Virus record (IMG/VR): IMGVR_UViG_3300047321_000489
Location: 1 to 37,603 of that record
Reading direction: 5' to 3' (one strand)
Source of the DNA: a virus
DNA: 37,603 bases
Below are positions 3,303 through 14,141 of the stretch, piece after piece. How positions within the stretch are numbered: the stretch's first letter is position 1; the number at the start of each line of letters is the position of its first letter. The position numbers were made by a program, and so were the translations under genes. The notes beneath the pieces are model-generated. The model searched no databases, was not told where the DNA came from, and saw nothing but the letters and a program-made list of their open reading frames with translations.

Positions 3303-3500
3303 ATGACGCCGATGATCGGGCTCCTGCTCCAGGCGGTGATCGTCCTCGTGATCCTCGGCGTCGTGCTCTATCTCCTCGAGACGTACGTGCCGATCAGCCC
3401 GCCGATCCAGATCGTGATCCGCCTGCTCGTCGTGCTGATGGTCGCGCTCTGGTTGCTGCGGCTGTTCGGGCTCGCCGGGCCGCTGCCCACCCTGCGCTGA
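3303..3500 (+). CDS. Two-helix small membrane protein, holin candidate
   Basis: 65 aa. Two clear transmembrane segments: residues about 4-26 (Ile-Gly-Leu-Leu-Leu-Gln-Ala-Val-Ile-Val-Leu-Val-Ile-Leu and on) and about 36-57 (Gln-Ile-Val-Ile-Arg-Leu-Leu-Val-Val-Leu-Met-Val-Ala-Leu-Trp). They are joined by a Pro-rich turn. Size and topology fit a class II-like holin or the small membrane proteins common in phage late operons. It starts 3 bp after the upstream stop and is the last rightward gene before the convergent lysogeny operon, whose last stop lies 7 bp away. No endolysin partner of a standard family was found, so holin function is an inference. Confidence 0.6.
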   Translation: MTPMIGLLLQAVIVLVILGVVLYLLETYVPISPPIQIVIRLLVVLMVALWLLRLFGLAGPLPTLR

Positions 3501-12576: not shown

Positions 12577-12851
12577 AGACCTGGCGGCGCCTGCCGATGG
12601 CGCGGCGCTGCGGGTGCTGTCGCGAGGAGATCCCGGTCGGCGCGGCGGTGTGCGTCTACGAGATCGGCCGCGTCGTGCGGGTCCGCTGCGAGGCGTGCGA
12701 AGGGACGCCGGCGCCGCCGGGGTTGCCGGCGCTCCCCGTCATCGACACGACGCCTCGCCCGTTGCCGCTCGTCCGGTTCCAGGCGGAGATGCTGCCGCTC
12801 GACTGGAAGGAACGCGCCGCCCACGAGCGCGAGCCGGGCGAGGACGGGTGA
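12573..12851 (+). CDS. Zinc-ribbon-like small protein
   Basis: 92 aa from GTG at 12573 (GTGA overlap); an ATG at 12597 is an alternative. Residues about 12-42 have Arg-Arg-Cys-Gly-Cys-Cys-Arg-Glu-Glu-Ile-Pro and, after a beta hairpin, Arg-Cys-Glu-Ala-Cys-Glu-Gly: two Cys pairs like a zinc ribbon. The C-terminal half is Pro-rich. Such modules bind DNA or proteins; the partner is unknown. Confidence 0.7.
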   Translation: MKTWRRLPMARRCGCCREEIPVGAAVCVYEIGRVVRVRCEACEGTPAPPGLPALPVIDTTPRPLPLVRFQAEMLPLDWKERAAHEREPGEDG

Positions 12852-12937
12852 TGAATATTGACCAACTGCAAAACCTCGCGCTGATTCTGGTCTGCTTTGC
12901 GCTGGTGATCTACGTGGTGGCGCGGCGGAACCGATGA
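12851..12937 (+). CDS. 28-residue single-span membrane peptide
   Basis: 28 aa. Met-Asn-Ile-Asp-Gln-Leu-Gln-Asn at the start, a helix Leu-Ala-Leu-Ile-Leu-Val-Cys-Phe-Ala-Leu-Val-Ile-Tyr-Val-Val and a basic Ala-Arg-Arg-Asn-Arg end. Both borders overlap neighbours (TGATG upstream, ATGA downstream), strong evidence that this is translated despite its size. Function unknown. Confidence 0.65.
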   Translation: MNIDQLQNLALILVCFALVIYVVARRNR

Positions 12938-13686
12938 CGGTGGGGAGTCTCTTCGCGGGCATCGGCGGATTCGACTTGGGTTTCGAGCGCGCCGGGTTCG
13001 AGATTCGCTGGCAGGTTGAGATTAATCCATTCTGTCGGGCCGTGCTCGCGACGCACTGGCCGGCTGTGAGGCGCTACGAGGATGTCCGAACCGTTGGTCG
13101 AGAACTCGCAGATGTGGATGTTCTCTGCGGAGGATTTCCCTGTCAGCCCCATTCGGTTGCTGGCCGACGTGGCGGCGCTGACGACGAGCGCGACCTCTGG
13201 CCCGAGTACGCCCGACTCATTCGCGCACTTCAACCCCGATGGGTCGTGGCGGAAAACGTGCCAGGGCTTCCCTCAAGTGACGCTGGACGGTTCTTTGGAA
13301 CGGTTCTCGGAGACTTGGCCGCGTGCGGGTATGACGCGGAATGGGATTGCCTACCTGCGTCCGCCTTCGGCGCCCCTCACCGACGGGACCGAGTCTGGCT
13401 CGTTGCCTACATGGCCGACACCGACGAGTCGCGACCACAAGGACGGGACGGCGCAGTCCTGCCGGAACGTGCCGACGAATGGCCTGTTGGGCCGTGTCAT
13501 TCACCAGCGCGAATCTTTACCGACATCGACGGCGATTGTCGTCAGTGGGAGTTTGAACCCGACGTGGGTCGAGTGGCTCATGGGGTACCCGCTCGAGTGG
13601 ACCGTCTTAAAGGATTGGGCAACGCCATCGTCCCGCAAATCGCGGAATGGATCGCGCGGCGCATCCTAGAAGCAGAACGCCGATGA
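12934..13686 (+). CDS. dcm: DNA cytosine-5 methyltransferase
   Basis: 250 aa. C5-methyltransferase motifs in order: I, Ser-Leu-Phe-Ala-Gly-Ile-Gly-Gly-Phe-Asp (5-14); IV, Gly-Gly-Phe-Pro-Cys70-Gln with the catalytic Cys; VI, Glu107-Asn-Val; VIII, His-Arg-Arg-Asp-Arg-Val-Trp-Leu-Val-Ala (about 149-158); X, Gly-Leu-Gly-Asn-Ala-Ile-Val-Pro-Gln (about 227-235). The region between VIII and X, where the target-recognition domain sits, is short at about 70 residues. No restriction enzyme is adjacent, so this is likely an orphan phage methylase that protects the genome or controls expression. A second open frame lies inside it. Confidence 0.92.
   Translation: MTVGSLFAGIGGFDLGFERAGFEIRWQVEINPFCRAVLATHWPAVRRYEDVRTVGRELADVDVLCGGFPCQPHSVAGRRGGADDERDLWPEYARLIRALQPRWVVAENVPGLPSSDAGRFFGTVLGDLAACGYDAEWDCLPASAFGAPHRRDRVWLVAYMADTDESRPQGRDGAVLPERADEWPVGPCHSPARIFTDIDGDCRQWEFEPDVGRVAHGVPARVDRLKGLGNAIVPQIAEWIARRILEAERR
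13082..13669 (+). CDS. Gene nested in +1 frame inside the methyltransferase gene
   Basis: 195 aa, wholly within the methyltransferase gene and one base off its frame. It does not look like a shadow. The sequence is balanced and carries segments I recall from phage and bacterial proteins found with C5-methyltransferases: Trp-Pro-Arg-Ala-Gly-Met-Thr-Arg-Asn-Gly-Ile-Ala-Tyr (about 79-91), Pro-Thr-Pro-Thr-Ser-Arg-Asp-His-Lys-Asp-Gly (about 111-121), and Gly-Ser-Leu-Asn-Pro-Thr-Trp-Val-Glu-Trp-Leu-Met-Gly-Tyr-Pro (about 156-170). Both frames appear constrained at once. The start at 13082 is the first ATG; no strong ribosome-binding site is obvious. Function unknown. Confidence 0.6.
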   Translation: MSEPLVENSQMWMFSAEDFPVSPIRLLADVAALTTSATSGPSTPDSFAHFNPDGSWRKTCQGFPQVTLDGSLERFSETWPRAGMTRNGIAYLRPPSAPLTDGTESGSLPTWPTPTSRDHKDGTAQSCRNVPTNGLLGRVIHQRESLPTSTAIVVSGSLNPTWVEWLMGYPLEWTVLKDWATPSSRKSRNGSRGAS

Positions 13687-14141
13687 CGGTTGTGGAGTTC
13701 ACGGTCGTCGGCGTCGCGCAGCAGATGGGGTCGAAGCGCGCGTTCCTGATCAACGGCCACGCGAAGATCACCGACAGCAACCGCAATCTGAAAGCGTGGC
13801 AATACCTCGTGCGGCAGGGCGCGAGCCGGGCCATGCGCGAGCGGCCACAACTGGCCGGCGCCGTGCGGTTGACGGTCGCGATCCTGCTCCCGCGGCCGAA
13901 GTCGTTGCCGAAGAAGGTGGCTGCGCATACGAAGGCGCCCGACCTCGACAAGCTGGTCCGCGGCACGGCCGATGCGCTCTCGCAGATCGTGTTTGCCGAT
14001 GATTCGCAGGTCGTGGATTTGGTCGCGATGAAGCGGTACGCGCCGGCCGGGCTGGCGCCGCGCGTGACGATTCGGGTGGAGACGACGGCGGGCGCTGGCG
14101 TCCTCGCCAGTCAACAACCGCTGTTTGAGATGGTGCGCTGA
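13683..14141 (+). CDS. rusA: RusA-like Holliday junction resolvase
   Basis: 152 aa from the ATG at 13683 (ATGA overlap). RusA pattern: N-terminal beta strand with Lys-Arg-Ala-Phe, then Lys-Ala-Pro-Asp87-Leu-Asp89-Lys-Leu-Val-Arg-Gly-Thr-Ala-Asp-Ala-Leu, and Val-Phe-Ala-Asp106-Asp107-Ser-Gln-Val. The three acidic positions form the metal site in this family. It cuts four-way DNA junctions, here those made by RecT/YqaJ recombination or replication, clearing branches before packaging. Confidence 0.88.
   Translation: MTVVEFTVVGVAQQMGSKRAFLINGHAKITDSNRNLKAWQYLVRQGASRAMRERPQLAGAVRLTVAILLPRPKSLPKKVAAHTKAPDLDKLVRGTADALSQIVFADDSQVVDLVAMKRYAPAGLAPRVTIRVETTAGAGVLASQQPLFEMVR

Follow-up and report, generated by a model that had tools for sequence, protein, structure and literature searches.

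M.EcoHK31I is a C5-methyltransferase of E. coli that recognises YGGCCR and is the partner of a restriction enzyme. Lee, Kam and Shaw reportedly found in 1995 that its small subunit is produced from an alternative frame within the gene of the large subunit, and that both polypeptides are required for methylation in vitro. In a published description the enzyme consists of two polypeptides, the larger with motifs I-VIII and X and the smaller with motif IX, and the predicted recognition domain is placed on the large subunit (PMC3404938). It was named a naturally split methyltransferase (PMC3439449). M.AquI (CYCGRG) is also a C5-methyltransferase in two subunits, with the break in the variable region (PMC3404938). 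For the mycobacteriophages ShiLan and Pacc40, another report describes hidden HNH insertions in methylases (PMC11855218).

The locus analysed here lies in a 37,603-base IMG/VR virus record, and this whole stretch of DNA is referred to as the window. Based on the sequence and a structure model, we consider it very probable that the locus encodes a C5-cytosine methyltransferase similar to M.EcoHK31I, with its two predicted polypeptides specified by nested genes. SAM binding, the catalytic Cys and motifs I-VIII would be provided by the large chain, in which a linker predicted to be disordered then leads to the helix of motif X. The small chain, made from an internal start, would bring a variable recognition segment, motif IX and an N-terminal domain. 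Both chains would assemble as one methyltransferase, with the large chain responsible for catalysis and the small chain for recognition and motif IX. The enzyme would mark the phage DNA, most likely shielding it from host restriction. We infer the assembly of the chains, the need of both for activity and this purpose.

Proposed distribution of the methyltransferase motifs over the two frames

The large (alpha) chain, a C5-cytosine DNA methyltransferase of 250 aa, is encoded at 12934..13686 and has motifs I-VIII and X but no recognisable motif IX. The small (beta) chain of 195 aa, the proposed recognition/motif IX subunit, is nested in the +1 frame at 13082..13669. Its ORF extends from ATG to TAG over 195 codons and lies wholly within the 250-codon methyltransferase ORF, which confirms the claim of an earlier sequence-only reading of this DNA. 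The two peptides quoted in that reading, RAGMTRNGIA and GSLNPTWVEWLMG, were found in the translation. Both genes, the motifs and segments described below and the resolvase gene are on the + strand. The next gene encodes a RusA-type Holliday junction resolvase (13683..14141; PF05866, E=1.7e-18), and its start overlaps the methyltransferase stop by ATGA. A ParB-like gene follows the resolvase gene and a RecT homologue is present upstream of the methyltransferase; these neighbours place the locus in a DNA replication/recombination region. An ORF of 28 residues with a hydrophobic segment (MNIDQLQNLALILVCFALVIYVVARRNR) at 12851-12937 overlaps the methyltransferase start, again by ATGA.

Residues 1-166 of the large chain matched PF00145 (E=7.8e-51), and the chain also matched TIGR00675 (E=2e-44) and phrog_363. 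Motifs I, IV (PCQ), VI (ENV) and VIII are present in order. Motif IV, Pro-Cys-Gln with the catalytic Cys70 (13138..13146), was invariant in alignments A2 and A4. In the same alignments Glu107 and Asn108 of motif VI (Glu-Asn-Val, 13252..13260), His149, Arg151 and Arg153 of motif VIII (His-Arg-Arg-Asp-Arg, 13378..13392) and Gly229 of motif X (GNAIVPQ, residues 229-235, 13618..13638) were invariant, and Asn230 was nearly so. The sequence-only reading had considered all methyltransferase motifs of this frame intact, and this holds for all of them except motif IX. A recognition region and motif IX were absent from the large chain: the Pfam match stops at residue 166, and residues 161-230 were mostly of low confidence in the AlphaFold model. 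The pLDDT was about 95 at residues 1-160 and 231-250 and 44-60 over about 161-230, except for a modest 73 at residues 191-200. The model showed a confident C-terminal helix (234-249, motif X) and fitted the large domain of M.HhaI with an rmsd of 1.4 A over 164 columns. Since the model is confident only for the catalytic domain and motif X, a recognition domain of the M.HhaI type and motif IX are missing from the large chain as modelled, and residues 161-230 or so are predicted to be largely disordered.

The DNA that encodes this disordered linker of alpha encodes, in the other frame, the variable PTPT segment of beta and then SLNPTWVEWLMGYPLEWT. Beta residues 46-110 (13217..13411) comprise the N-domain (FAHFNPDGSWRKT...SETWPRAGMTRNGIAY...), which lies over alpha motifs V-VIII and shows conservation exceeding the alpha constraint. 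Residues 111-155 (13412..13546) are variable, contain Pro-Thr-Pro-Thr repeats and represent the candidate target-recognition region; the alpha frame is predicted to be disordered there. Residues 157-174 (13550..13603) form the motif IX-like block SLNPTWVEWLMGYPLEWT, recognised by conservation, codon bias and a match to the in-frame motif IX position of the methyltransferase of Mycobacterium phage Moonbeam, with L158, N159, P160, E164, W165, L166, M167, G168, P170 and T174 near-invariant.

The small chain had no match in Pfam, NCBIfam or PADLOC. In PHROGs it matched families named DNA methyltransferase, among them phrog_1008 (E=1e-24), whose name presumably derives from the gene in the overlapping frame. 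Searches of PDB sequences with the small chain and with its family profile gave nothing useful, and a weak match to a sulfatase (E=0.71) was rejected. The small chain modelled alone was not predicted to fold (pLDDT 60, pTM 0.20), which would fit a dependent subunit, yet is no evidence for one. No relative of the beta N-domain was detected outside the overlap by Pfam, NCBIfam and PDB sequence and profile searches. Because the methyltransferase frame is ancient in this region and the searches revealed no further relatives of the N-domain, it probably originated by overprinting on the catalytic motifs.

Copies of the small chain outside the overlap were found only as C-terminal halves fused into the methyltransferase frame of two actinophages, which have single-chain forms: Mycobacterium phage Moonbeam (L184 2308-3411) and Gordonia phage Gudmit (L088 2263-3648). 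In both phages the methyltransferase frame contains PTP repeats, then HPAFPEWMMGWPAGWVT in Moonbeam or SAAFAEWMMMLPAGWVT in Gudmit, and then motif X, and a short +1-frame ORF still codes for the conserved beta N-domain. By hhalign, the small-chain family aligned with residues 197-329 of the Moonbeam methyltransferase, just before motif X (prob 96, E=2e-9). HMMER set the Moonbeam block on M.HhaI 272-291 (RKLHPRECARVMGYPDSYKV), in collinear order with the other parts of the enzyme, at a non-significant score. The small-chain family profile gave no alignment with a classical single-chain methyltransferase in hhalign. Since this comparison failed and no PDB match was obtained, the tie to canonical motif IX goes via the fused relatives and the position of the block. 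From these sequence comparisons, the assignment of the C-terminal block of the small chain as motif IX is supported but not proven. In the phages with a relocated motif IX block, the second frame still retains the N-domain, which suggests that this domain has a role of its own.

This last observation could also mean that the product of the second frame is a genuine protein outside the active enzyme, with another job; it might, for instance, inhibit a host nuclease or a restriction enzyme or regulate the methyltransferase. The missing relatives of the N-domain outside the overlap, and its retention in Moonbeam and Gudmit despite the relocation of motif IX, are as expected from such a protein. 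However, the motif IX-like block is under the strongest selection, no other motif IX occurs in the large chain, which is predicted to be disordered there, and two phages carry the matching block inside the methyltransferase chain. We therefore consider a separate job improbable. The sequence-only reading had proposed a functional pair that modifies target choice or blocks a host nuclease; the chains probably do form a functional pair that sets target choice, while the block of a host nuclease was not supported. It is conceivable, if doubtful, that dual coding is obligate in a large family of phage and prophage C5-methyltransferases that crosses phyla, and that the N-domain of the small chain was overprinted with a function of its own, for example in switching specificity or in anti-restriction. 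If true, the frames would contain a subunit that is partly enzyme and partly something else.

Proposed start site and translation of the small chain

Before its first ATG, the +1 open frame of the window extends upstream over 13071..13081, with a weak Shine-Dalgarno-like GAGG just upstream, and it is closed upstream of 13071. The ATG at 13082 had a ribosome-binding duplex energy of -5.6 kcal/mol, compared to -6.0 kcal/mol for the methyltransferase start. An in-frame start codon was present in the scanned interval in 112/127 relatives and lacking in 15/127. ATGs within the start interval numbered 118 in the second frame versus 21 in the two other frames together. The start position of the small chain varies among the relatives and the ribosome-binding sites are modest. 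The small chain would be translated independently from this internal start.

Programmed frameshifting from the methyltransferase frame into the +1 frame would instead yield a fusion and not a separate chain. An internal start that is not fixed, weak ribosome-binding sites and, in several loci, a +1 open frame extending far upstream of the conserved part would fit such a mechanism. However, a fusion with early entry into the +1 frame would lose motif IV and one with late entry would lose motif X, most ATGs of the start interval belong to the second frame, and the +1 frame of the window is closed upstream of 13071. Frameshifting is thus very unlikely, and we keep to independent translation of a separate small chain.

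In two loci, a lone stop after a CAG codon breaks the second frame near the PTP repeats (L001, TAA at 3328-3330; L048, TAG at 773-775), with good homology on both sides of the stop. Either these stops are assembly errors or the small chain is made as two pieces there.

Recurrence of the second frame and selection on it

The longest +1 open stretch in the methyltransferase gene of the window was 199 codons, compared to a mean of 154 codons in synonymous shuffles (p=0.21). Taken alone, the open +1 frame of the window lies within what chance allows for a GC-rich gene such as this. For the reality of the second frame the comparative evidence was decisive, not the single sequence.

We compiled three sets of related loci. 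The first comprised 93 loci found with the second protein in viral contigs, phages and plasmids. The methyltransferase and the second frame overlapped in all of them (93/93), in the +1 relation save for a few with indels shifting both frames. The second set was retrieved by the methyltransferase alone, which avoids the bias of a search with the second protein, and comprised 73 distinct viral genes. A homologous open +1 frame was present in 73/73. With few exceptions, these second frames exceeded the length reached in synonymous shuffles (median p=0.015; p about 1e-58 when combined by Fisher's method with the genes treated as independent), and the result also held for genes of about 47-50% GC. 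For the third set, one genome per bacterial or archaeal species was scanned with the second-protein profile, which gave 80 bacterial/MAG loci from many phyla. All 80 overlapped a methyltransferase, 78/80 in a clean +1 relation and 2 mixed, and none was free-standing. A free-standing homologue of the small chain in its own, non-overlapping gene was not found in any of the three sets.

Overall, the nested pair was present in more than 200 related loci of phages, prophages and plasmids. Named carriers include phages of Mycobacterium, Synechococcus, Klebsiella, Stenotrophomonas and Lacticaseibacillus, one plasmid of Leptospira and one of an archaeon, and prophages of E. coli. A divergent relative on a Synechocystis plasmid has an open second frame with the motif IX-like LSATAYALIQGYPSNW, and its match was weak (pairwise E=0.37; hhalign E=1e-5, covering the PTPT segment only). 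Two loci had particularly long forms (L058 1623-3401 and L073 1569-3281): their methyltransferase frames comprise 593 and 571 codons and their second frames 533 and 524 codons, so insertions in the variable region leave both frames open. In three E. coli prophages (L265, L266, L267) and two Klebsiella phages (L086, L175), a YYNE-x-DP-like motif II block lies ahead of motif I (FFAGIG), as if the order of the N-terminal motifs had been changed.

Selection was tested by keeping the methyltransferase protein of each of 127 relatives fixed, shuffling its synonymous codons and comparing the +1 translation with that of the window. The +1 identity to the window's protein was 0.40, compared to an expected 0.26 (mean z 5.7). 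Among distant relatives (methyltransferase identity <0.5), the +1 frame gave a z of 4.8, compared to 2.0 for the +2 frame; as a control, the N-terminal part of the methyltransferase upstream of the overlap gave a z of about 0 in these relatives. Along beta, z was weak for residues 1-45 (0.63) and reached 2.95 for residues 46-110 and 4.44 for residues 156-178. Codon bias at conserved methyltransferase residues was 0.466 bits in the overlap versus 0.070 bits outside. It was 0.48 bits under the beta N-domain, versus 0.08 bits outside the overlap, and peaked at 1.13 bits at the motif IX-like block, where the second frame was more conserved than the methyltransferase frame. Individual codons were frozen: Gly212 as GGT in 99/100, Ala215 as GCT in 111/112 and Gly217 as GGG in 125/126 sequences.

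As judged from these comparisons, both frames were shown to be under selection, as the sequence-only reading had supposed for two proteins on the same DNA, and their relation was shown to be fixed. That the second frame is a mere by-product of a conserved methyltransferase protein and GC-rich DNA can practically be dismissed: the openness in the window is compatible with chance, but the conservation was destroyed by shuffles that retain every methyltransferase residue, synonymous sites were frozen in the overlap only, and the pattern holds at lower GC too. The earlier reading was also borne out in linking the second protein to C5-methyltransferases. It had named a lack of homologues and of frame conservation as grounds for its refutation, and this was clearly contradicted. 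It erred in calling such dual coding rare, as the nested arrangement is the rule in this methyltransferase family.

Annotation of the locus and comparison with known systems

Among 12 annotated phage and plasmid loci, 7 had only the methyltransferase frame annotated, 5 only the second frame and none both. In SOVA965 the second-frame protein is annotated as DNA-cytosine methyltransferase, and a gene listed as hypothetical on a Synechocystis plasmid likewise lies in the second frame. Public records with one frame only are split by frame into L081, L083, L085, L090, L091 and L182 versus L082, L084, L086, L087, L088, L089 and L092, and some second-frame proteins are named DNA methyltransferase there. 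RefSeq lists the methyltransferase of the E. coli ECCTRSRTH03 prophage (L265 3017-4228) as two incomplete pseudogene pieces; its frame is actually an uninterrupted single ORF, accompanied by a long partner frame in +1.

No literature on a widespread nested methyltransferase subunit was found among the searchable papers. Two-chain C5-methyltransferases of this kind are known; the breadth of the nested arrangement and its systematic mis-annotation appear to be unreported in the searchable literature. Many phage C5-methyltransferases that were cloned or tested as single genes may be inactive or misread in specificity, since annotation would have dropped the half of the enzyme encoded in the second frame. 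Whether orphan enzymes need the nested subunit is a directly testable question. The more than 200 loci also provide a large natural data set for the co-evolution of two protein domains on one DNA, with the fused forms for comparison.

The HNH insertions of ShiLan and Pacc40, as far as described in the accessible part of that report, are similar in that a second frame lies inside a phage methylase gene, in the same group of Mycobacterium phages. They differ in that a homing endonuclease lies inside an insertion element, not in a frame over methylase motifs, and that part of the report contains no mention of a nested frame of the present kind (PMC11855218). We rejected an identity of the small chain with such insertions: it has no match in Pfam, NCBIfam or PADLOC and is read over methyltransferase motifs. 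In the single-chain enzymes M.HhaI and M.HaeIII, one polypeptide includes both the recognition domain and motif IX, unlike the locus studied here. M.AquI carries both motifs IX and X on its small subunit, whereas here the large chain retains motif X and one gene is nested within the other in a different frame.

A search for M.EcoHK31I in E. coli genomes and plasmids gave only prophage relatives, not that enzyme, and the likeness is drawn from its published description. By that description, both systems have a large chain with motifs I-VIII and X but not IX; the small chain of M.EcoHK31I carries motif IX, and that of the present locus is its putative carrier. M.EcoHK31I differs in that its predicted recognition domain is on the large subunit, whereas in the present locus the variable segment belongs to the small chain and the large one has a linker predicted to be disordered. 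It also differs in setting, since M.EcoHK31I partners a restriction enzyme and the present gene lies in a phage replication/recombination region.
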